Notes under the pieces: model-generated | What the model was told of the DNA's origin: nothing | The model's database searches: none | The model's input: only the letters and a program-made list of their open reading frames with translations | Program-made: the position numbers and the translations under genes | Shown here: one piece after another, positions 43,347-59,809 of the stretch | How the letters are laid out: each line of letters starts with the position of its first letter | Numbering within the stretch: the stretch's first letter is position 1 | Source: Isoetes taiwanensis | Lineage: Eukaryota; Streptophyta; Lycopodiopsida; Isoetales; Isoetaceae | Length of the DNA stretch: 64,000 nt | Assembly (NCBI GenBank): GCA_021234155.1 | Contig: JAJEKV010000053.1 | Coordinates: forward strand, 5,672,488-5,736,487 | Reading direction: 5' to 3'

Positions 43347-45815
43347 ATGGCTCTTAAAGGCAAAAATTACCCTAAATTTCTCTCCATTCTTCACGCTTTT
43401 GCTGAATTTGCACCCTCTGATCGACCCGAGCTTCTCAAACAGTTAAGATCCTTCCATGAAAATCCTAAAAATTTCATTTTCTTTGGTAATTTTGCTAACT
43501 CATGCATTGGGCAGTCTTCAATGGATCCTTTATCTTTTAGAGTCCCATGCTGGGATAATCTTTCCAAGCACCCGGATTTTTTAGGCCGACTACCAAGCAT
43601 TGACCCCGTCCTCCAAATTCCTGTTGCTTATGGGGACAAAAGATCGGATCAACCAATGTCTTCGGATGCTACTATGGACAAGATCCTGGGGGATATCCGT
43701 CCTTTCAAGGGACCATTCAGTGCCACAAAGAAGGCTATTTTCAATGGTATTTCCTTAGATCTCCCTTCTGTTCATGCAAAATTAAATTCATTCCATGACT
43801 CTACAGTAATTGTTAAAACAAATAAGCATGGAATAAAATTAGACAAGCTTTGGTCTTTCTGCTTGAACCTTCAGAAGGGTATGCTAATAAATGCTGTATA
43901 CTGGCTCCACTTTCCATATATTATGATTGAATGTGGCAGTAAAAGATCTGCCAATTTCCTTCTTAATCATGGTCCCATGGCCTTTGAGTCTTTCCAACTT
44001 ACCTTTCTTAAATGGGATCCCAAATTTGAGGTAGCCAATTTGGACAATCTTTGTGTTGCATCTACCACTCTCCATGGCCTAAACCCAATATACTGGAATG
44101 AAGATTGTCTTAAACTCTTATTTGACTCAATTGGTTCCTACATTTGCACTGAATTCTCCCCCTATAGACCACCCCGCTCCATTGTCCAGCTTGATATTTC
44201 CAAAAACATTCCTCTCCACATTCCCTTTCAAGATGTTTTCGAAAAAGAAGCCTCTCTAGATTTGAGATGGTCAGGCCTGCCACCTCAGTGCCAAAATTGC
44301 AAGATCAGACACTTTTGGTATGATTCCTGCAAGGAGTTACCAGCTATTTGTGAGCAGAAGTCAAATGCTCCTATAAAGTTATCTGATATCTGTCGAGTCA
44401 ATGAGCAGGTCAATCAAAAAGTCAATATCAGTAATGAGGTCAACAGTCAGCAGGTTATGCAAAATTCAAAAGGATCAATTATTGATCATCATGATTTTGA
44501 CCTTGGTGACTCAGGCATTATCTCCAAGGATAACAATTTTCAGTGGACTAAAGTTAATGGCAGCTACAAAAGAATTAAAAGGAGAAAACAGTTAAGAGAG
44601 GCAGAACTCAAGAATGGGGAAGCATCTAAGACTAGAGGTGATGTGAAGACCTTTAGGACTGGTAAAGCTCAGCAAGTCAATGTGTTGCAAAACCATGAAA
44701 ATTCTGCTAAAATCACTGAAAAGGATAACAGTTTGTCAAAAGTCAGTAATCTTTATGATACATTGAACAAAATAATTATGGATGCTAAGTTTTCTGCCAA
44801 GAGTAAGGAGAATGCTGATATTCTCAACTCCTACATGGTTAAGAATGGTCCATTAAGCAAGAAAAAGAATTATCGTAAATCTCTGATACAATCCAGGATA
44901 GAAAATGAAGAGTTTATGATTGATCCCAAGGATACTTTGGTGGAGGTTGTTCCAGCACCTGTCCCTGCTATATCAATGGAGAATAATCAAATTATTCCTC
45001 CAAAAAATGTTGCTGAATCAAGTTCTGTTCATGAATCTCAGATGGCTGCTGATCACTTAAATGGTAACTCTAATCAATTCCAGGTATTAGCTAACCTTAA
45101 CCCTGAACTTGATTTGGATGTTTTGTTGAGCAAACCATGTGAAGGCAATTTGAACCCTACACAATCCCCAATTATTGATCTCTCACCAGCCCCTGATCCC
45201 CCTCCCCCTCAACCTTCAAATATTGCCTTTGACATTGCTCAGCAGCTGGCATCCTTGCAAGAGGGCCTCAGTGCACATGGCCAGCATTTCTATCAATATA
45301 ATCTTATGGATGAAGAAATTGTACAAGATACTCCAGAAAGGGATGCAATTGGCCTGGAATTTGACAATCAGTGGTTGGCTAGTGACAAAAATATGACAGT
45401 TGATTCCACTCAAGAAAATGCTCAAGAAAATGCTGTTGTCCTGCAAGAAGACTTAACTCAACCTGAGGAATTTAACAATTCAGGTCATGTTTCTTCTCTT
45501 TCCCCATCTTTTATGCATAATCTTTTAAATCTTCCTGTTTCTCCTAAAAATAGAATGTTTGAATTCATTCCTGGGGGGTCCTCAGATATTAGTGAAGATG
45601 AAATTGAAAATGCAAATGATAAGGAAAATTGGGAAGGGGACAAATTTCTTGTTGCCTGTTCTAATGCTGGATTAACTACCAAATTTGAATCCTCTAAATC
45701 CAATGCCTCTAAGTATAAGAAGCATAATTCAACTCTTGCTGATCTCACTAATACTCCTGCTGCTAATACTAGAAGTAAGCAGAGAAAAGGGAAAAAGAAA
45801 AAGAGATATATTTGA
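43347..45815 (+). CDS. LINE-B ORF1 protein (DUF4283 / zinc knuckle)
   Basis: An intact 822-aa frame. Residues about 130-240 fit DUF4283, the RNA-binding-like domain of plant L1 ORF1 and related proteins (FCLNLQKGMLINAVYWLHFP, then GPMAFESFQLTFLKWDP). At about 315-328, CQNCKIRHFWYDSC is a zinc knuckle with spacing CX2CX3HX5C, one residue off the usual CX2CX4HX4C. The C-terminal half is long, acidic and low in structure and ends with a basic tail (KQRKGKKKKR) that could be a nuclear signal. ORF1 proteins coat LINE RNA. It precedes ORF2 by 56 bp. It is the best-preserved retroelement ORF in the window. Confidence 0.9.
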   Translation: MALKGKNYPKFLSILHAFAEFAPSDRPELLKQLRSFHENPKNFIFFGNFANSCIGQSSMDPLSFRVPCWDNLSKHPDFLGRLPSIDPVLQIPVAYGDKRSDQPMSSDATMDKILGDIRPFKGPFSATKKAIFNGISLDLPSVHAKLNSFHDSTVIVKTNKHGIKLDKLWSFCLNLQKGMLINAVYWLHFPYIMIECGSKRSANFLLNHGPMAFESFQLTFLKWDPKFEVANLDNLCVASTTLHGLNPIYWNEDCLKLLFDSIGSYICTEFSPYRPPRSIVQLDISKNIPLHIPFQDVFEKEASLDLRWSGLPPQCQNCKIRHFWYDSCKELPAICEQKSNAPIKLSDICRVNEQVNQKVNISNEVNSQQVMQNSKGSIIDHHDFDLGDSGIISKDNNFQWTKVNGSYKRIKRRKQLREAELKNGEASKTRGDVKTFRTGKAQQVNVLQNHENSAKITEKDNSLSKVSNLYDTLNKIIMDAKFSAKSKENADILNSYMVKNGPLSKKKNYRKSLIQSRIENEEFMIDPKDTLVEVVPAPVPAISMENNQIIPPKNVAESSSVHESQMAADHLNGNSNQFQVLANLNPELDLDVLLSKPCEGNLNPTQSPIIDLSPAPDPPPPQPSNIAFDIAQQLASLQEGLSAHGQHFYQYNLMDEEIVQDTPERDAIGLEFDNQWLASDKNMTVDSTQENAQENAVVLQEDLTQPEEFNNSGHVSSLSPSFMHNLLNLPVSPKNRMFEFIPGGSSDISEDEIENANDKENWEGDKFLVACSNAGLTTKFESSKSNASKYKKHNSTLADLTNTPAANTRSKQRKGKKKKRYI

Positions 45816-45871
45816 CTTTCTGTTTGCTGTTTCTTTTTTCTTTCTGCTCAATTTTCTAAGCTCAAAATATA

Positions 45872-46717
45872 ATGAGAATTTTATCCTGGAATGTTAGAGG
45901 AATTAAAGGTCCTATTAAAAGGAGAAGAGCCATTTCCCAAATCAAAAGCTATAATGCTGATGTGATCTTGCTTCAAGAGCTTAAACTCCCAAAATTTGAA
46001 ACTTCTAATCTTGGTGACTGGATTTATCCAGGATCTCACTCCACCTAGATTGAGGCCACTGGGAGAAGTGGTGGTATCATTATGATTTGGAAAAGCCTTG
46101 AACATCTTAGCTTTTTCAATTCCCAATTCTAAATTGTGGCAAGCTGTTACCTTCAAATATCAAAATTCTATTTTTAGTATCATTAACATTTATGCCCCCA
46201 CTTGCCCAAAGGATAGGGAGTTGCTCTGGACTGACATTAGCTCCTGATGCTATCTCAGATTGGATTGTTGGTGGGGATTTTAATAACACCCCTTCTTGGA
46301 ACATGAAATTAGGGAATAATATTAATATGTCTGTCTCTGAAAGATGTATTTGGAATAGTTTTATCTCTGATTCTTCCCTTGTACATGTCCCTTCTTCTCT
46401 GACTTCCTTCACTTGGTCTAACAAACAAAAAGGGGATAAAAAGGGTCTATTGTGCACTTGATAGGTTCTATGTCTGCAAAGTCCTAACTCTTCTCTTTGG
46501 GATAATTGTTTTGTTACAAGTGATGAAGGGAATATAATCTCTGACCACCACCACAATTCACATTGCACAAGGCGGTTGACTCAAATTCCAAGAGATGGAA
46601 ATATTCCCTACAAATTCAATTGTGCTCTTCTAGAAAATGAGTCATTTGTGAATGATTTTAAGGCTTTCTATCAAGATCTTTGATCTAATTTCAATCATCA
46701 GTCAATGAAAAGCTTTT
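45872..46717 (+). pseudogene. LINE-B ORF2 endonuclease domain
   Basis: Starts MRILSWNVRGIKG, the classic opening of plant L1 ORF2, then DVILLQELK (catalytic Glu). A TAG at 46046-46048 and later frame changes break it. Further pieces are GRSGGIIMIW, WIVGGDFNNTPS (46268-46303), SFTWSNKQ and, near 46540, SDHHHNS with the catalytic His. The order is complete, so the domain was whole when inserted. It nicks target DNA to prime reverse transcription. Confidence 0.9.
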
Positions 46718-47950
46718 ATGCTAAAATCAAGAAGGCCAAAAATTTGGATTAAAAGAATGGTTAAGGAAGAAGCATCTTGCAGATTGAAGGAGAAGGAGGA
46801 TTTGTTGACACACATGAGAAACATAAGATCCCTCTGCGGGGATGATCCCTACAGCCTTAATTTGCATGTAGATGAAGAATTAGTTGAAAATTACCTCAAA
46901 AGTATTGAGGAGGCTGAAGCTAAAAGCTCAACAATCAAATGTAAGGTCAAGTTTAACAAAGAAATGGATAGTGGTAGCTCAAGATTCTTTTTTAAAGTAG
47001 CCAAGGCTAGGCTGCTTAGAAATTCTATTACTGAAGTTAGAACTGATGCTGGTTTATGCTTGAATGATCCAAAAATTATTAGATCCTTCTTTCATGACAA
47101 TTATGCCTCTCTTTTCTCTAAAGTTCCCTCTCAACATATTGACTCCTCAAGAGAGAGGGATTTCCTTGATCTGTTAGACAGAATTATCCCTTCCCCTATT
47201 GACACTATGGATGATTCTTTTATTGTTCCTCCTACTGAGCATGAAATTTTTAAAGTCTTGAGATCTTTTGGCAAATGCAAATCCCCGGGACCTGATGGCT
47301 TTCCTAGTGAATTCTACATCCACTTCTGGGATCTTTTGAAAGATGATATTATCTCAATGGTGAGAGGCTTTTGGGAAACTAATCACTTGCACTCTTCTAT
47401 CTCTGCTGGCCTCATTGCTCTTATTCCTAAGATAGACAATCCCTTTGCTTTTTCAGATTGGAGACCTATTTCTCTCACTAATACTTCCTATAAAATCTGT
47501 GCCAAAGTCATTGCCAACAAAATTAAGGAGTATCTTCAGAAAAATATTTTCCACTATCAATCTGCCTTCTTATCCAAGAGGTTTATTTTAGATAACTATA
47601 TTACTGCCATGGAAGGTCTTCATTGGAATAAAATCTCCAACCAAAATTGTGTGCTCTTAAAGTTAGACTTCAAAAGAGCCTTTGACACTGTAAGATGGGA
47701 TTTCCTCGACAACGCTCTCACTAAGTTTGGATTTCATCCTAAACTCAGGCTTTTAATTCATGGGCTGAATATTCACTCAAACTCTGCTGTCATTGTCAAT
47801 GGGTCTCCTTCTCAATTCTTCCCTCTTTCTCGTGGTGTGAGACAAGGCTGCCCCCTTGCCCCATACCTCTTTTTGATTGTGGCTGAAATGCTTACAAGGG
47901 CTGTAATTCATTTAAAAAATCTTGGGGAGATTAGGGGCCAAACAAAGTGA
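46718..47950 (+). pseudogene. LINE-B ORF2 reverse transcriptase, first part
   Basis: A 410-aa frame with CKSPGPDGFPSEFYIHFW, LIPKIDNPFAFSDWRPISLT, LKLDFKRAFDTVRWDFLDNA (first catalytic Asp) and LSRGVRQGCPLAPYLF. It ends just before the YADD box because the DNA transposon inserted there. TATGCTGATGAT for YADD is found at 55721-55732, directly beyond the insert. Confidence 0.93.
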
Positions 47951-47971
47951 GGATTGCCTTACCATTTCTCA

Positions 47972-47975
47972 ATAT
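47972..47975 (+). other. Left ATAT duplication of the DNA transposon
   Basis: ATAT here and at 55720-55723 flanks the inverted ends. The interrupted LINE codons (CAATATGCTGATGAT, Q-Y-A-D-D) are rejoined if one copy is removed. A 2-bp TA duplication with longer inverted repeats fits equally well, since the site is palindromic. Confidence 0.75.
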
Positions 47976-48006
47976 GGGTGAAAGTATCTTTGGTGGGTAG
48001 CAAAAA

Positions 48007-48770
48007 CAGCGACCCAAACACAAAGACCAAACACCCAAAATACATTTTTTCCCACCCGTCATACATTTTTTTCCCACCCTTCACCTATATAGTACCACCT
48101 ATATTACGCCGATCTATTCGTCTAGCGGCACCGTTTATACAATCATTACCGTTTGCCGCCCAATGAATGAAAGCGACCCCGCAATAACGGAACCACTAGA
48201 CAAACGAACGAACTTTTCGAATTTGTATTTTTCCAAATCTCTCTTCCCCAACTTTCTCTACTCGGCCAAGCAACCCGTGAATTTGCGGCTTTCGGTTCCA
48301 CTTTATACAAACGGATCAACCATGGTAAAGAAGGTGATTGATCCGCCCGGCTCAAGCGATAATTCCAACGGAACCCATTATCGGGTAAGCAAAAAGCAAC
48401 AAAACAAAATTTCAATGGGTTTAGGGTTCAACCCGATTAATTCGATTTTCTTGCATTCTTCCGGGCCGGAAGAAGCGTTCCCTTAAGACCGGACTGGCTG
48501 ATTGCCGAACCGAAGAAGACTTCCATGCGTATGCAGTTCCGCCAAACGAGGGCGTTCATCCCTCTCAATTTGAACGGACCTCATATCAGCAAAAGAAAGT
48601 ACAATGAAGTTTGGGATACCAACGGGGTCATTCCTGGCAAAACTTCCATTGACAAGGTGAGGCCAGAGCACGAAGAAGCTCTAATAGAGCTTCTGAGCAA
48701 AATATACCCGGACGGGTTGAAGAACAGAGAAGTTAGAAAGACGAGTATCATACCTATTTGCATTCAATAA
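48007..48770 (+). other. Left interior with weak frames
   Basis: Plus-strand frames at 48163-48486 (107 aa) and 48525-48770 (81 aa, with RPEHEEALIELLSKIYPDG) look coding-like but match nothing I recognise. They may be exons of the same plus-strand gene as the phosphatase-like domain. Confidence 0.3.
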
Positions 48771-50320
48771 CTGCCTCAGAGCAAAGCAGGATCCACAGAA
48801 GTTCAAGGTTAATTGGGCAGCAGTTGCAGCAAAGAGTAGAGCCTACAGCAGCAAGGTTAAAAGTGAACCGGCAAGCAGTGCTCAAAGCAAAGCGAGGCGA
48901 GAGGCGGCAAATCTCGGCAAACCACAAACACTGAAAGCATAGCAGAAAGGCCAGTTTCAGGAGGCACTGGTATTAAATTAGAAGGGAGGCCGTCCATAAG
49001 GAGCTTTGCATCAGGCCCAACGGCTTACGGCTTATGGGGAGAACATATCACGCTGGAAGTCCTATGCAAAGATTTGCGGGAAACCCTAGACACGCAAAGA
49101 AGGCTGATTTAGTCTCCAAGAAGGAGCTAGTTGTCCAGTCCCGTGCTAAGGGAGCTTTCTTCTTAGCCGTAAGAGAAATTGCGTAGTAAAATTAAAGACA
49201 ACATCTCACGTCTTCAAGCAGTCCACAGGTCCCGATCTTTGGTGCCTCTCACGAGCCTCTCGAGCTTGAGAGAGAAAGACATGGCGAAAGTACATGCTCA
49301 AAGCCCTTGTTGAAATGGGGGTGGCCCAATAGATGAGGGGATAGTTCAGGGTGGCCACTATAGCTGCCGAGGTTGCAAACACCGAAGTGCAACTTGCAAA
49401 AGCCAAGCGGCATTTCTGTAATCTCAACAGGGCTTAGGGAACTTACAAGGAGAGTCGGCCGGCTTGTGAGCATCTATCCCGTGATATTGGGTTGCTAATT
49501 GGAGATGAGGGCGATGCTCCACATGCGGCCGGCATTCCGTGATGATTACACCCTAAGTCGAAAGCTGAAATGTGGCCACGTATATCATGTCACCGCCCGA
49601 GTTTGCTTATGGAGAAGACACTTGCCTCGAATGCTCGTAAAGCAGTTCAAAGAGGCTTAGTGGAGGAATTGGGGAAGACACAGTCAAGCGGGAACCCTTA
49701 CATGTTTGGCAAAGCACACAAACAAATAGTTGAGACAATTGACCTAGATGAGGTGGTAGCTACAACTCCGGATAGCAACAGGAAAAGGAAGCATGTCAAA
49801 ACACCTCTTAGTAAAAGGACCCAGGACACAAGTCTACAAGGACTCGAACTCCACAAGCAAGAAACGGCCAAAAAAAAGGTACACGTTTGTTTCTCAAGTG
49901 GGTACATTAGAAGCTTTGTAGGAGATTAAAGCGGCCAAAGACGAGGCAAGCAACATGACACATTGCGGCACGAAAGCACTGCGTGCTAAAGACACCAACA
50001 CGGTCCAAAGCGATTCAAAGTAGTTCGACGATCTTGAGAAATACAATATAGTTCCAAATTCTGCGGCAACCTCTACAAAGGCCTCCTCTAACACTTGTTG
50101 ATGCAGGGGCGGAACAAGGATGTTGAAGACGAATATAGTGGATAAGGGTGAACAAGGTTGTGAGCCGAATCACAAACTCACAAGGTCGGGACCAAAAAAG
50201 GTCCCGGACCGAAGAGTGAGGGTGAGTCGGATGATTCGGTTGATGAGGGCGTGCCTATAGGCGTGGCACTAGGAAAAAAAACAAATTATCTAATGTAATT
50301 TATATGTACTTTCGTTTAGG
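48771..50320 (+). other. Degraded sequence with short plus-strand frames
   Basis: A 119-aa frame at 49570-49929 contains RKAVQRGLVEELGKTQ and a basic KRKHVKTPLSKR segment. Neighbouring frames are short and shifted. Probably a decayed part of the plus-strand gene; not recognised. Confidence 0.3.
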
Positions 50321-50328
50321 GGCCAATT

Positions 50329-51719
50329 TTGTTTGCACAAGACTTGGCAAAGCGATCGTTTAAAAGGTTTTTGTGTAATACCATAATATATGTTTTTTCC
50401 CCATTGTGTCCTTGTAAAATTTGTTTTGAGTTTCAACCTAGGGATCAATATGCATTTGCATGCGAGAAGGAGAAGGCGACCACAAGTGGTGCTATTGAAT
50501 CGAGGTCAAGATAGTGAGAGAACCCAGGGCACGGATAATGAAGAAACCAAAGTGCAAAAACAAACTCTTACATATAAAAGGTGCAATCCAATATTTAAGT
50601 TCAAGCGGTTATTTTACTTGTCTTATTTCACTTGGCATAATGTCCGCCCGGTTCAGGTTGGTAATTGTAGCACCACTTTTGATTTTGCGAGGAGACCAAG
50701 GACCCTAAGCCACCACTTGGTGCAGTTCGCGATAGCCAGGAAACACCCATACATTGGGGACAGGGAGATACTAGTAAGGATGTATCTAGCTATGGCTATC
50801 AGCACTCTCCATCACCTGGTAGCAAAGATAAACCAGAGTCCAGCAGGTCGCAGCAACTTCCAGCACGTCCAGATAGCACTTCCAAAGTCCAAGCCCAAAG
50901 ACGATAAGCAAGCGATGCGGCCGCCCATCGGCGGTGGTTGCAAGCGTCGAGGGATGGACACCCAGGCCGGAAGTGCATGGTGCTTGACATAAATGGTGTC
51001 TCGCACGGATAATAACAGAGGAGAATGAATCAAAAATCTTGCATCCACCACAAGCGAACCATGTTGTAAAAAAAGCGCAAGTAAGTACCTCATTTGCAGA
51101 CCAGGGTATCATGAGTTTGTGGAGTGGGCACTGCAGAGGTTTGATGTTGTGATTTGGAGTGCTTCTCTACTTCGGAATACAAGGGATATGGTGGATGCAT
51201 TGTTCCCTGATCTGCAGACCAGATTCTTGAAGATATATGGTCAAGAGCATTGCTATGCATGCGAGCATCCAACCAGCACAGAAAAGCAACTATTTTTCAA
51301 GGAGTTGAAGGTTGTTCTTGAGGATTTTCCTCAATATCATGGTATGATTTTCTTGGTTGATGACGAACTGCACAAAGGGTTTCTAAACCCCGCACACACA
51401 ACCGTTCTGTTATGCCTTTCAGGGGGCAAGAAGAGGACAATTTTTTGAGAAGTTTGTGTGTCCTGGGCTTTGGAATACTTGGCCTCTCATACGGTGAGGA
51501 AACGATCTCACAAATTGATTTCACCGATGCATGGTTGGCCCAGGAGGCGATTTGCGATCTTTGGATTCTTGTCTCAACAACTACCTTGTCTCGACCTACT
51601 ATATCCTCAATGCTCCTATTGAAGTACAAAGGCATTTCTTGGGCACCCTTCTGGCGGCGAGCATAGATTTGAGGACTTCGATGACTTATGAAGTAACCAT
51701 TGTACACTACTTTTTGTAA
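50329..51719 (+). pseudogene. FCP1/NIF-type phosphatase-domain gene, decayed
   Basis: Upstream frames (50390-50992) are Arg/Lys-rich. Near 50973 the strand reads KCMVLDINGV, matching the catalytic Asp loop of the HAD-type FCP1/NIF family (here D-I-N-G). After a break, 51091-51448 reads RPGYHEFVEWALQRFDVVIW, SASLLRNTRDMVDALF, GQEHCYACEHP, LFFKELKVVLEDFP, LVDDELHKGFLNP and AHTT. This is the conserved NIF domain order, including VIWSAS and the late acidic DDE loop. Stops near 51030 and 51447 break it. Such domains dephosphorylate protein Ser/Thr. It lies inside a transposon, so it is captured or element-borne. Confidence 0.8.
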
Positions 51720-52858
51720 TATATGCGAGATTACTTTGTGTTATATCTTGAGTATTGAGTGATCTTGTAAGATGTCTCAAATGTTGAGTGTACAATTTTT
51801 ACGTAATATATATCAAGCTTACTCTGCAATACTACAAGCATTGTGTCGATACTAAAATACTCCAATACAAACACTACTACAAGCATTGTTTCCAATACTA
51901 AAAGACTCCAATACTCACAAGCATTGTCTCCAATATAATGATCAAAATTTGAGACAAGTACACAAGTAACTTCTGAGACTGTTAAAATGATAAAACAACT
52001 AGGTCAAAGCATATTCAACCTTCATATGGCGGGATCGTCAAGGATCATCGGTGAGTAGCCCGATCAAGGGAAAATACGTTAGTGCGTGGAATCGATTCAT
52101 CTCAAACTTGATGGTCGATACGTGATGATCGTCTTTGGAAGGTCGGACCTTTGTCTTCAAGTAGCTCCCAAAGTACCATCGGCCGGACAAAGATAGTACA
52201 AACCAGCCAACACATGTTCATCGACATTGAAGGTCTGACCCTAGCTATCCTTGACAATTGCGTCAAGGATATGCCTCAAACTTAACACATTTGACCACAT
52301 AGAAATCTGCATTCTCCGATTTCCCCCCTCGCTACAACAAGCGACAAAGTTATCACCTTCCTCTATGTTTCCACTAAGCCATTCTCCATCACCTTCAAAA
52401 ATGCCTCATCGATTTCGGTCTTGATAACTTCACCAAGAGACTTTTACGGCTTTAGAGTAACATATTTCCAATTCTTTAACCTCGCTTGTTCACACAAGAT
52501 GACCGATTTCCTTTCAAACGGTTACCACGAAACAACTTAAACCTCTATGAGCCACCCCTTGTGCTTGATTTGGCCAAGTATGTCCCGATCTTTGTGTATT
52601 TCCTTCGTCCCTTCTACCCCGCGCAGTCCAGCGTAAATGGTCTCGTCCTATCAACATCATCCTTTCCAATGAACCAAAAGTGCCTGCAAAAAGCCAGAAC
52701 AACTATTGCAGTTCACATACAGTACAGAGGCACATTACAGCATTACACAGCAGATAAAAGCAGATAAAAGCACTTTGTGAAGCAGATGAAAGCACGTTAA
52801 AAGCAGATGAATGCAGATGAAAGCATATTACCTCTTGATGTCCCCGTTGCTGGCACCT
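51720..52858. other. Spacer between the two convergent genes
   Basis: AT-rich, with short repeats around ACTACAAGCATTGT (51830-51930) and near 52745-52830 four AAAGCAGATGAAAGCA-like units. No supported gene. Confidence 0.4.
52745..52830 (+). repeat. Short tandem AGCAGATGAAAGCA-like units
   Basis: GCAGATAAAAGCA or GCAGATGAAAGCA occurs about five times in 86 bp just downstream of the transposase-like frame. Confidence 0.6.
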
Positions 52859-55210
52859 TCATTCCAACTCATAGCGAATTCCATGTGCATCAAGAAGCAC
52901 CCTAAATCTCACTCCATCATACTTGAGCTGCTCTCTAGTGAATGCCCTTTGAGGACCCGCCCCTTGCCCATCGTGCTCTCCCTTACCATGGGCTGTCCCA
53001 AAGAAATTCCATATTATTTCCTTCCCTAGCTCGTGGTGATATCTTGGTAGGAAATAGAATGGTCGGGCAGATTTGAATTGGCTAGAACAACCATCTGACC
53101 AAACTATATGCCTGGAGAATTCTACACCATTTGATACTAGCCATGAATTGTGCTTTCTAAGACACGGTGTTGCACAAAAGAGTGTCATGAATCTTGTCAT
53201 CACTCAAGTAAAAATGGGTTTCCTTCAATAGCTTTCACGATCCCAGGCTGCTGTCCATCCCATCCTATGATGTGATGTGGACGAGAATTGTTATTTGGTC
53301 ATTGTGCCAATGCCGGCTTTGAACCTCCCTTTGTATTTTGATGTTGTAATTTCAGCAAAATCAATTACGTAAACAATGGTGCCATCTTGGATATTGTCCA
53401 AGAAACTCTTGAATTGCATGGCCCCGCCACCTAGCCCCTGTAATTGTGTGACATTTAATATCTTCAACGTGGAACACAGATATGAAATGAAAGCCTTCAC
53501 CGCCGTTCTCTTGTAAGACAATCTAAGAACCGGCTTTGGTCCTTTCTTTTTTTCCCTTGCCATTTGAGGTCTCATCTTGTGCCGCAGCCTTGTTGGTCCC
53601 ACCAAATGCCTTTGGATTTCTTACTTTTGTTTCCCTTCTTCTCAACTTGTGCCGCAGACTTCAGCCGTGGTCCTACCAGTGCCTTGGATTTCTTACTTTT
53701 GTTTCCATTCTTCTCGGCTTGTGTTTGCAGCCTTCGAGCCCGGTCCCACCAGCTACCTTGGACTTCTTACTTTGGTTTCCCTTCTTGGTGGCATTAGATC
53801 TTTTCTTTTCTGCCGCCACCGGCACTTCCTTGGTAACGCAAGGTGCAACTCCATCAGCTTCTTCGTCTCCACGGAATCAGAACAAGGTGCAGAGCATAAA
53901 AAAGAAGATCGGCGCAAGTTGAAAGCACAAAAAGAGAGTCGGTAGCATGACAAAGACATATCAAAGATGTTTCAAAGAACAATAAAGAGAGTATTACCTT
54001 TTCAAACGTCTTCCATTCAAGCAAGAACTCGTGATTCTCTCTTTCTCTTGGACATATAGGAAGACTTTTCGTGCCACACTCTCGACATGTATACGCATCA
54101 AGCGGTCATGTTTATACCATTCTTCACCCCGCTCTTGTTGCAAACCCACGACCTCCGTGAGCTCATTTGGTTGAGTCATAATTATGTTGGTTGGCCGTGA
54201 CACTTCTCACCAGTCCATTGGACCTCGCAGGTGCACTTGCACTCTTCACCATGGAATCGGTTTTTTTGACCTTAATGCATTCGGTGCTACCCGGCATACT
54301 CCAACTTCATATGGTATATGCAACAACGGGTTTCCTTTTCGATACTTTCTTCACATAAATAGGCTTCAACTTTCGAAAAGCCTTTAAGCAAACAGGTGTT
54401 CGGGATGTGCCTTTTTGTATTGTTGATATAGCTGCGGTGAATGGTGGCCTTTGGTTAGAAATAGCAAAAAAAAAGTTTGTATGGAAACTTATAATTGTGA
54501 CCTCCGTATAAGGTGCAAGGGATAAGAAATTGAAGCCTTGACTCTCCAACAAGTGTTCACAACATCTTTCTTGCAAGGAGAGACTCTCACTGCTTTCTTT
54601 CCCACGGTATGCTTTGCTTGCAAGCGGGGTGAGAGAATCGCACCTCAACCTCTTTTGAAAGCGGACCACGGACCATTTCAAGGAAGGCTTCCGATTTCCT
54701 TAATGCGCTAGCTTGCAATTGTTGACCTCATGCAACCTATCATAAGAAATATTGCACATGTATCAATGAACATATCCCAGCCAAAGATCACTGCCAGATA
54801 CAAGCACTTGAAAGCATGAAGAAGCACGTGCATGAAGACAAGAAATAGATGTACCTAACAGCCCACCGCCATAGTGGAATTGCATCTCGAATTTGTGGAA
54901 GAAGCCATCACAAGTGTTGAGGTTCGGCTCTCCAAATATCATGGTTCCTTTGCCTCTTTGTGGCTGCCATTGTCCGTTTTCAAGTTGTTGAGCAAGCACT
55001 CCGGCCGCCTTGCACTCCTTTGGATTTGGCAAAAGTCCGTGTTCCCGAGATTTCCATTTCGTTGTGATGAACCACCCTCTTCATCACATCAGCCTTTGAG
55101 TTCCGTGAATGCTTTTTGGTGAGCTTATTGAAGTAATCAACTACTTGCTTGGCTATTTCTTGCCGCGCCTCATGCTCGAGATCCTCCCGCTCAACCATTG
55201 CTCTTTTCAT
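52859..55210 (-). pseudogene. Transposase-like gene of the DNA transposon
   Basis: Minus-strand pieces from N to C: 54980-55210 (KLTKKHSRNSKADVMKR), 54307-54681, 53994-54203, 53291-53605 and 52859-53203. The last two carry TIVYVIDFAE, RHIVWSDGCSSQFKSARPFY and WNFFGTAHGKGEHDGQGA. I know this DFAE ... SDG.x.QFK ... HGKGEHDG signature from uncharacterised transposase-like proteins of plants and animals. The two Asp (DFAE, SDG) would be candidate catalytic residues. Introns or decay separate the pieces. Position inside inverted repeats supports a transposase role. Confidence 0.6.
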
Positions 55211-55719
55211 CTTATTCCTTAATCAGATTCTCTCTTTTTCTCTCGCATCCAATTTCTTGTAAATTGCGAGGAAACCGGATCTTCACGTGATATTTTTCCG
55301 TGTTGGATTGACATCCAACAAATTTTTTTCTTGTATTGGGATTCATCAGCCGAAAATCCAATGCTAAACGCGTGATTGCCTCCGTGCCTGTGATCGGGGG
55401 AGCCATGAAATTCGAGAGAGGGAGGATAATTGAATTGGAGGGAGAATTTTCGCGCCCATGACTTAAGTAATCCATTTGCAACGTACTACCACACCACCAC
55501 TCGGCGAAAATCCAGCCAAAACCCACAATCATTATCCTAATCTGGCTCATTCGTGAGGTGGACGTGTTAGTACATGAAGGGCGTAAAAAAAATGACGGGC
55601 AGTTACGCTTAAAGCACCCCAAATTAAGCAAAAGCAGGGGTGCTTTAAGCGGGCTAAAACCCTGCTATAAGCATGCGTCCGGACGCATGCTTTTGCTACC
55701 CACCAGCATACTTTCACCC

Positions 55720-55723
55720 ATAT
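55720..55723 (+). other. Right ATAT duplication of the DNA transposon
   Basis: Pairs with 47972-47975. The following bases resume the LINE ORF2 codons for YADD. Confidence 0.75.
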
Positions 55724-57060
55724 GCTGATGATACCTTTGCTTTCCTTGATGCTGATCTATCTAATATTGAAACTTTCTTGGAAATTATTAAGCAATTCTC
55801 TGCTGCCTCTGGAGTGAACCTAAATTTGGCCAAATCTGTTATCATTGGGGATAATATCCAGCCAAACTTTGCTGACATCAAAGGTCCTTAATTGTAACCA
55901 AGCTTCTACTTTATTGGGAATGCCTCTTTCTCTAAATCCTTCCTTGAAAGGTCTTTGGCAGTCTATCATTGATAGAATTAAGAAGAAATTGAACCATTTT
56001 AGAGGGTGTCTATCTTTTGCAGGTAGGACTATTATTGCTAATTCAGTCCTTGCTAGCTCTCATATTTACTTCTCTTCTGCCCTAGTGGCTCCTAAAGCTA
56101 CCTATCAGGAAATTGAGAAACTTATAAGAAGATTCATATGGAAAGGGTCTCATTTAGTAGGTTGGAATTATGTTGCCAAGCCAAAGAAAAATGGTGGCCT
56201 AGGATGTAAGGATCTTCATCTGCAAGCTTGTGCCCTGGCTGGGAAATATGTGTGGAATTCTCTTGTGTATAATTATAGTCCAGCTTCTCAATTTATAAAA
56301 CTCTGGCTCCAGAGCTCTCATGTGGATGGTCACCCTTCCTTAAATCATATTTTGCCTGATTCATGCTTCAATATTCTCCACCCTGGTCCTAATACTTCCC
56401 CTCTCATGAGGAATATAATTATGGCATGGAATAGAGTTCAATCTTGCTTTGAATATGATGCCCCCATTGATCTGGAATCCTATCCTTAGTGATCATGCAA
56501 ACAATGCAAACAATGTTATGGCCCTGAGGCACCCAAGAATTTATAAAAAGTGGACTGATCATGGTTTCAGGTTACTGAGTGACCTATATTTGGATGGTAA
56601 ATTTATTTCTTGGACTGCCCTTAGGAGAATTTTGCAAGGTACCTCGAGTGACAAAAAGATATATTTCCATCTTAGATCCATTCTGCCTTACCTGTGGCTT
56701 AATAATGTAGTGCCCAAAGCAACTAACTGGAACTTGGATGGCAGATGTCATTATACGGTAAGCAAAGTTTACTCAATCATTAATGAATCTGCTGCCCCCT
56801 CAAAAGCTTCTTCTAAATGGTCTATTTCTGATGAGGATGGTAGGATTCTGTTTTATGAAGTATGGCACTCCTATTGTTTTCCTAAGGTAAGTTTCTTTAT
56901 CTGGTTATTGGCAAATAAGAGTATTTCTACATTACAAATGACCTCCAGAAGATATGAGAACATTTCCCCAAATTGTCAGCTTGGTTGCAATATGGAAGAA
57001 AGCACTGAGCACATTTTTCTATGTCCAAAGCTTAATTCTTTCTGGTCTTGGTTTAATAGA
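55724..57060 (+). pseudogene. LINE-B ORF2, YADD box and C-terminal region
   Basis: Resumes with YADDTFAFLDADLSNIETFL and FSAASGVNLNLAKS (to about 55890), then after a frame change LGMPLSLNPSLKGLW, LSFAGRTIIANSVLASS and KPKKNGGLGCKDLHL (to 56489). The last frame (to 57060) holds the zf-RVT-like part: FFIWLLANKSIS and CQLGCNMEESTEHIFLC (C-C-H-C). It breaks at SFWSWFN, where a minus-strand LINE is inserted. Confidence 0.92.
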
Positions 57061-58650
57061 ATAGAATAGAATATGATTTTATCGCCCACGAGACCAACCG
57101 CCTATGGGACCCAAGTACAAAGAGAGAGCAAGCAGCGTGATACTACTGTGATTAAAAACCCTCACCTCAAGGGTTTTCGGAAAAACCTTAGTAGCAATAA
57201 GGATGTTTTGACATACCGCACGCTTATATACATAATCACAAGTACAATTTGAGATTAATGCCTGGATTGAGGGGGCATAATCGAAGTCCGCTGTGATCCA
57301 TTACCTCCCCGAGGTATCGATCCCAACAAGCCTACAGAGGCCGTGCTCAAGAGCTCATGCAAGGCCCGATGGGGCACAACTAACCGAGCATACCGAGCCC
57401 GGATATGCTCAGACACGGACAGCCCGGAGGGCGTGACTTTCATCCTCAATGGCGCTCGCTGACAAAGATTGGATGCACTCGCCCTCACGCGGCCCCGGAA
57501 TCCATCTCCCCTCGCTCAATGCGGAGGTGGTGTGCACTGTCTTGTAATGGAAGCAATCACCCCCGCTTTTTTCATGGGTAGATGGGTGCAATGTAGTGGT
57601 GTGGGCCCTCGTGAGCATGGGATTAACTCGTTGCCGATAATTTGCCACCTTGACATGTGATGTGGCCCTCTGATCCCAAAGCTTGGACATGAAGCAAGCA
57701 TCCAAGCATCGCTTCAAGGCGGTAGCGTTCCTTGGGTGTATGCAACGGGTCCACATCGTGTGCCTCGCACATTCCATAGCGAACCACCGGGCTTGCTTGT
57801 CTTTCCAAGAAGCTTTGAGTCGCCGCGGGCCCATCGCCACCGCCAAAGCAAGGTTGGGGCCGGGCTTCATCCATAGCCACCACCTTCCCCGAAGTAAATA
57901 ATGTGACGCTCCAGCCATGACCCTCTCAGAATGGAAGGAAGCCGCCTCCGGAGCAAGATCTCGATATGGGACCGTGGATTTCCACTCCCATTGTGTCGGG
58001 CCAAGAAGGCCTTCAGACCGCTCTAGATCGCTCCAAGTGGTGAGGGATATCACCGGCCCCCTACACTTCTGCCCCATAGAGGAGGACCGGCTCAACCAAG
58101 CCCCCAACAAGTGTGCCTAGTGACCCCATGCATACTGCCTTGACTGTTGTTTTGCATTGCATACTGTGGCTTTCGGCAGCGACCTGTGAACCCGATGGAT
58201 GCATCCCGGTGTGTGGTAGTAGAAAACTCAATGCCCAAATACTTATAAGACTGAGCCACCTCCACACCGCCGGTGGGTAAGTGAATGAGGGAAGGCGTGG
58301 GTGCCGGGATGATGGGGACCAAGCCCGGCACCCTTTGTCTTGGCCAAGTTAACTCTCATGTCGCTGAATTTGGCGAAAGTGTCCAAAGCATCCGTGGCGC
58401 TGTATGTCCTCTCCGGGGTATATGCGAAAAGTGTCAACATCATCAAAGGCATATATGAGTTGCTTGGGATTATGTGGTGCATCAACTGAGCCTCCCTGTG
58501 CTCACCTAGCCATTCTTCTAGCTGGTCAATGTACAAGCCAAGAGCCGCCGGGGATAGAGGACAGCCCTCGGCGCACCCCAATGTTACTAACAACGGCTCC
58601 CCGACAAAGCAGGAGACTAACCAGAGCAAGCCTCAGATAGTCTCAGATAT
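57060..58650 (-). mobile_element. (TTCTA)n-tailed LINE inserted in LINE-B
   Basis: On the minus strand, 58629-58243 reads GCAEGCPLSPAALGLYIDQL and DMRVNLAKTKG, reverse transcriptase blocks with YAFDDVD in a shifted frame for the catalytic box. Next come VEVAQSYKYLGIEF and long C-terminal frames (57409-58110). The end (57255-57488) matches the copy at 6868-7352. The 3' end has GGGTCCCATAGGCGGTTGG and stops in TATTC repeats at 57060-57075, not poly(A). The copy is 5'-truncated within the RT. Exact edges are approximate. Confidence 0.82.
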
Positions 58651-58652
58651 AG

Positions 58653-58888
58653 CATTCTATGAGAAGCTAGGCTTTCTCTTCCCTACGAGAGTTAATGGTA
58701 ATCTCTTATCATATATTCAAAATAATTGTGCCTTTGCCAATACTATTATGTTCATTGCTCTATGGAATATTTGGAAAGCAAGAAACAGAGTTGTGTATGG
58801 TAAAAAGAACTTTTCTATCTTCTCGATTAAGATGCATTTCCAGCTTGACATTGAATCTACAAAGAATAAATACAAAAAAAGAAATTAG
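58653..58888 (+). pseudogene. LINE-B ORF2, final segment
   Basis: Continues ORF2 after the inserted LINE: FYEKLGFLFPTRVNGNLL, FIALWNIWKARNRVVYGKKN and KMHFQLDIESTKNKYKK. The WNIWKARN motif is typical of the end of plant L1 ORF2, and the same block occurs on the minus strand at 62400-62612. Confidence 0.9.

Positions 58889-59774: not shown

Positions 59775-59809
<35 letters not shown>
59775..59809 (+). other. Poly(A) tail of LINE-B
   Basis: A run of about 35 A residues just before the right copy of the 13-bp duplication. Upstream it reads TTAATGGAAAAACCAATTCT, which matches the 3' end of the second LINE-B copy. Confidence 0.9.

Follow-up and report, generated by a model that had tools for sequence, protein, structure and literature searches.

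A 64,000-nt stretch of the Isoetes taiwanensis genome (contig JAJEKV010000053.1; hereafter the window) contains a DNA transposon of 7.7 kb, at positions 47976-55719, inserted into a long interspersed nuclear element (LINE) with a 4-bp duplication, ATAT. Two genes are found inside it, a transposase gene on the minus strand and an accessory gene with a NIF domain on the plus strand, and both are broken in this copy (Table 1). The inverted ends are identical at 16 of 16 bases (47972-47987 and 55708-55723) and at 17 of 18 further in, and their gapped alignment covers ~43 bp with a score of 61 (500 shuffles gave at most 37). A first-pass annotation, made from the letters alone, had reported inverted ends of about 33 bp; the ends are real, with the longer extent given here. 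Directly inside the right terminal inverted repeat lies a perfect palindrome of 24 nt (55669-55692), and the left end showed no such palindrome. Removal of 47976-55723, the element plus one ATAT, yields an open frame across the junction (..EDCLTISQYADDTFAFLDADLSNIETFLEIIKQF), which reads on through YADD in the reverse transcriptase (RT) motif ..LTISQYADDT of the LINE. The long RT frame immediately upstream (46718-47950) is in a different frame from the one that crosses the junction, and hence the LINE is itself broken near this point.

Table 1. Features of the transposon and of the LINE that holds it (window positions; TIR, terminal inverted repeat; TSD, target-site duplication; ORF, open reading frame; aa, amino acids).
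Feature	Position	Strand	Basis or remark
Host LINE, left part	43347..47975	+	ORF1 43347-45815; RT PF00078 within 46718-47950
TSD, left (ATAT)	47972..47975	.	Empty-site junction; other 4-bp duplications at other copies
Left TIR (GGGTGAAAGTATCTTTGGTGGGTAGCAAAAACA..)	47976..48014	+	End alignment; genome end matches
Subterminal inverted repeat arm	48064..48083	+	Pairs with 55575-55594, 85%
Accessory gene, first conserved part, 81-aa open piece (..NEVWDTNGVIPGKTSIDKVRPEHEEALIELLSKIYPDGLKNREVRK..)	48525..48770	+	177-aa counterpart frame in L030
Accessory gene, decayed RING-like finger region	49500..49660	+	Limits approximate, by eye against L030, where it is open: CSTCG..KCGHVYHVSCLSLLMEKTHCLEC
Accessory gene, NIF domain region (PF03031)	50977..51650	+	Stop and frame changes; motif I LDING 50983-50997
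Transposase gene, decayed, three frames	52193..54596	-	tblastn of homologues; weakest end piece 54596-54372, E 0.044
Transposase catalytic core (DFAE, SDG, HDG aspartates)	52901..53422	-	tblastn, structure model, motif positions
Subterminal inverted repeat arm	55575..55594	-	Pairs with 48064-48083
Two right-end palindromes	55606..55692	.	55606-55651 (15-bp arms) and 55669-55692 (24/24)
Right TIR	55682..55719	-	End alignment
TSD, right (ATAT)	55720..55723	.	Empty-site junction
Host LINE, right part	55724..57069	+	RT resumes at YADDT

The element is one of many. A pattern built on its ends has 46 exact matches in the 1.66 Gb searched, while the reversed control pattern has none; these imply 39 element loci, of which 20 were fetched besides the window in stretches of 7.6-9.0 kb (two, L017 and L019, extend past their fetched stretch). 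Both ends were found in 17 copies, counting the window and L030, and 13 of them have exact 4-bp duplications; in L009 three of the four bases agree, and L011, L024 and L025 have none. At other copies the duplications (e.g. TAGA, ATTG, TCAT, ACTT and AAAT) adjoin GGGTG..CACCC with no fixed TA. Because these 4-mers differ from copy to copy, ATAT is a 4-bp target duplication, and its earlier report on both flanks is thus confirmed by the empty site as well as by other insertions. Two subfamilies can be told apart. One is ~85-91% identical to the window copy (L025 79-82%); in the other (L011, L012, L015, L017, L020 and L027), identity is ~80-87% in the right half and mostly 67-69% between 48.3 and 49.9 kb (74% in part of L027).

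The NIF sequence travels with the ends. Among the 20 fetched loci, blastn found it complete in 18, with a partial deletion in L023, and absent from L021, a right-end fragment, which answers the question raised by the first-pass annotation of whether copies with the same ends carry it; L011 and L020 retain NIF and have lost the transposase core. Wider searches scored the best 150 of 3952 first-look candidates for the NIF piece and the best 150 of 8458 for the transposase core, together with the best 150 of 3261 for PF03031 and 65 of 11215 for diverged transposase lineages (P0008), the last two lists being compared by eye only. For 61 of the best 150 NIF matches, an opposite-strand transposase match (itself among the best 150) lies 0.6-4.6 kb downstream, where chance would give 0.2, and two further NIF matches are near one in another arrangement. 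Ten unpaired NIF matches, chosen for their high scores rather than at random, were also fetched: nine have convergent transposase sequence downstream and one, L060, does not, and in L054, among the same ten, the catalytic core is missing. NIF and transposase therefore occur together in most of the copies tested.

The minus-strand gene had been called transposase-like from three motifs, all of which are in place (DFAE at 53351-53362, WSDGCSSQFK at 53072-53101 and HGKGEHDG at 52967-52990). In the window copy the core is spread over two frames, with two frame changes and two stops, and all three Asp of the triad are retained. An earlier model built from nine sequences was poor (predicted local distance difference test, pLDDT, 42.9). 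With a 92-row alignment, the model of a relative shows a confident RNase H/integrase fold with a D-D-D triad (pLDDT 89.7), and the comparison with DDE transposases that had been proposed thus comes out in favour of such an enzyme. A search by Foldseek alone returned nothing at E≤0.001. In Pfam (E≤0.01), no transposase family was hit by any of the 92 homologues, and three further families, two of which are of unknown function, were each hit by a single homologue. No relative turned up in viral or prokaryote contigs, and homology of the window transposase is not supported upstream of 54600. By its modelled fold and triad, the gene is a DDE/D-type transposase, with catalysis predicted. Tandem repeats of ~74 bp at 53570-53786 within the gene, which vary among copies, code for a Lys-rich repeat (EKKGNKSKKSKVAGGTQPEAAAQ in L030).

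The plus-strand gene can be read in L030, a copy flanked by the duplication TATA. Here the plus strand has open frames of 177, 301 and 348 aa among others, of which the 348-aa frame matches PF03031 with 72.4 bits over 1-155 of 160, and the 301-aa frame has a RING-like Cys/His pattern, judged by eye, and a basic segment. On its minus strand are 164- and 348-aa frames with homologues, a 254-aa frame that matches the C-terminal part of the transposase, and a 249-aa frame for which no homologue was found. In the window, the open piece matches PF03031 with 24.6 bits (cut-off 21.8) and the read-through with 45.5 bits, but the reading meets a stop after LDINGVSHG and then several frame changes. Of the FCP1/NIF gene first described here, LDING, RPG..FDVVIWSAS (51098-51166) and the domain itself are therefore real, and a single open frame is not present.

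Whether this NIF domain could act as a phosphatase turns on its motif I. The FCP/SCP phosphatases of the RNA polymerase C-terminal domain (CTD) share with the transposon protein the full-length match to PF03031, and clean NIF copies retain the nucleophilic Asp as well as the DD pair (FLVDDSL), both of which would suit an active phosphatase working on the RNA polymerase II tail. However, these phosphatases have D-x-D in motif I, whereas the transposon NIF has D-x-N. Motif I is readable in 19 of 25 NIF copies (in the other six the read frame does not include it), and every one of the 19 has D-x-N, none D-x-D; the catalytic motif DxDx(T/V) is absent, with LDING in the window copy. In CTDSP1, nucleophilic attack is made by the first Asp with help from the second, the one replaced by Asn in 19/19 copies here (PMC7281111). 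TbTim50 lost its activity when both Asp were replaced by Ala (PMC8546626). With D-x-N in motif I, phosphatase activity is therefore doubtful and a binding role is favoured over catalysis. The working phosphatase envisaged by the first-pass annotation is improbable, and the sequence makes the accessory protein more likely to be a binding protein or an anti-silencing adaptor. The action on host transcription that the annotation gave as an example is hypothetical.

Selection on the accessory gene was measured in 12 NIF domains, open over ~223 codons and falling into four groups. These were picked by eye from the 25 with a readable frame, and picking also required MVLD[IVL]NG, a requirement that was not made for the motif count of 19/25. 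Between groups 1-3 and group 4, the ratio of nonsynonymous to synonymous divergence (dN/dS) is 0.15, 0.16 and 0.18, at a synonymous divergence (dS) of 0.73-0.88; among groups 1, 2 and 3 it is 0.31-0.35, and within groups 0.22-0.57, with few changes. For five copies that lie in elements with a convergent transposase (L029, L030, L032, L035 and L041), taken alone, dN/dS is 0.14-0.17 across the deepest split. In a set of 22 copies that includes decayed ones, the N-terminal part gives 0.11 between subfamilies, at a dS of 1.19, with third-position differences of 0.405 vs 0.151 and 0.121. Between subfamilies, NIF and the N-terminal part are thus both under purifying selection, and the test of selection that had been proposed for the NIF frame has the outcome expected of a functional gene (0.14-0.18). 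Between-subfamily dS falls from 1.19 in the N-terminal part through 0.63 in RING and 0.26 in NIF to 0.14-0.23 in the transposase pieces, and the subfamilies are hence mosaics.

These ratios bear on whether NIF is a passenger, a piece of a host gene captured once by the founder and copied along with no role. Plant transposons are reported to capture gene pieces often (PMC13317346, PMC8903248), the window copy is broken, and other transposase lineages seem to be without NIF, by eye and among the matches listed. However, a passenger is expected near a dN/dS of 1, far from the values of NIF inside the element and of the N-terminal part, and 113 of the best 150 NIF matches have no stop in the match (counted by eye, in a list selected for score). 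The mark of a captured fragment of the Pack type is that it evolves free of selection within the element, and here the piece is selected. The passenger reading is contradicted by the in-element result and largely refuted, leaving it with little probability. The suggestion that NIF is an accessory gene, by comparison, is supported by both its co-occurrence with the transposase and purifying selection.

In its architecture, the family resembles MuDR of maize, in which two convergent genes (mudrA and mudrB) encode a transposase and an accessory protein; the transposase superfamily, TSD and accessory protein of MuDR are different. A Tc1/mariner element with a TA duplication, as which ATAT at the window insertion alone could be read and to which Mos1 among the fold matches of the transposase model might point, is ruled out by the 4-bp duplications of other copies with no fixed TA, and the Pfam matches of the 92 homologues include no mariner family, making this type extremely improbable. 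A close likeness is to the Sola superfamily. Sola elements are described as having DDD transposases, 4-bp duplications, TIRs and lengths of mostly 2-9 kb (PMC10741241), all of which agree with the D-D-D triad, duplication, ends and 7.7 kb of the unit. Sola2 elements have AT-rich 4-bp TSDs, including ATAT, and can carry Fanzor genes (PMC3627910). The passages on Sola consulted mention neither a NIF nor a RING gene (PMC10741241, PMC3627910); the family described here has a NIF domain and a RING-like region. The Sola2-Fanzor elements of slime moulds are likewise Sola-type with a second, unrelated protein gene, but theirs is Fanzor1 (PMC3627910), while in the unit the second gene encodes NIF, runs convergently to the transposase gene and is selected. 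Among the papers listed from the open-licence literature of PMC, judged by titles and abstract openings, none describes a transposon with a NIF gene.

Taken together, the element is probably a member of a multi-copy, two-gene cut-and-paste transposon family with a D-D-D transposase and 4-bp duplications, in which the selected NIF gene encodes an accessory protein that serves the element. Selection kept NIF intact in other copies, which suggests that the transposon uses the gene for its own spread. From knowledge of its family, the D-D-D enzyme would act by cut-and-paste. Fuller copies have two convergent genes. On the minus strand the transposase lies in several exon-like open pieces, and the plus strand encodes the conserved N-terminal part, the RING-like finger together with its basic segment, and the NIF domain, which may all form one protein. 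This accessory protein would help the element to persist. With its altered motif I, it may bind and not cleave a phosphorylated target, e.g. the RNA polymerase tail or a silencing factor, and the RING part may mark the bound target; these targets are guessed from the known substrates of the NIF family. The window copy itself would be movable only with proteins from other copies.

Several observations weigh against this interpretation. Of the 12 NIF copies, a convergent transposase is shown only for the five named above. When decayed copies are included (22 copies), dN/dS of NIF rises to 0.50 between subfamilies (shifted 0.75, 0.90) and 0.58 within subfamily A (shifted 0.77, 0.73), with 0.45 for RING (shifted 1.07, 0.99) and 0.47 for the transposase core (shifted 0.96, 0.71). 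The best Pfam match of the RING region is zf-RING_2 at 20.8 bits, under the cut-off of 27.3. Splice sites able to join the RING and NIF frames of L030 in-frame exist, and it is from these possible sites that a RING-NIF fusion is weakly suggested. With the decayed NIF piece of the window as the query, none of nine candidates proved to be a relative at E≤0.001. No NIF of their own was seen by eye among the matches listed for the diverged transposase lineages (65 scored), which argues that the transposase in general can do without NIF; one diverged transposase is 6.7 kb from a NIF match whose own transposase match is on the other side. Lastly, as the likeness to Sola is one of described features, the unit is provisionally called Sola-like.

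A bolder and rather doubtful extension is that a plant transposon lineage evolved a RING and NIF pseudophosphatase that marks a phosphorylated host factor (the C-terminal tail of RNA polymerase or the silencing machinery) for ubiquitin-dependent removal or relocalisation, as an anti-silencing or transcription-coupled factor, with related D-x-N NIF genes as recurrent cargo of other repeats. Few DNA transposons with a selected non-transposase gene are known. A selected NIF gene in a multi-copy transposon is a testable candidate for the influence of an element on host transcription or silencing, and provides an example from nature of a NIF protein that has D-x-N and a selected role.

Further NIF sequences are present elsewhere in the genome. 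At C1018:22907501-23033811, five strong NIF matches (142-172 bits) lie within 130 kb, with a diverged transposase match (63% identical) between them at C1018:22925229. Further D-x-N NIF genes (LDLNGVL, LDMNGVL), 25-33% identical to the transposon NIF, are dispersed at L061 (C1051:7004500-7005700), L065 (C1007:8793000-8794200), L062 (C1027:14502500-14503700), L063 (C961:1012100-1013300) and L066 (C1100:9760100-9761300), and may be cargo of other repeats. Another NIF class is represented by L067. L061 and L065 are on separate contigs and 95% identical, and the NIF frame of L061 is continuous with a stretch resembling a retroviral-type aspartic protease, judged by eye.

A comparison of break counts by eye between the window genes and the LINE, as a sign that the genes decayed before insertion, gave p values of 0.003-0.06; the claim was dropped, as p varied with the counting, introns confound it and the endonuclease part of the LINE is equally broken. 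ORF1 of the LINE (43347-45815) is open, with 822 aa, while ORF2 has ~10 breaks by eye, mostly in the endonuclease part, and stops near 57069. An apparent second insertion in the same LINE occupies 57100-58650, after which a LINE-like C-terminus picks up near 58664, followed by an A-run at 59775-59809.

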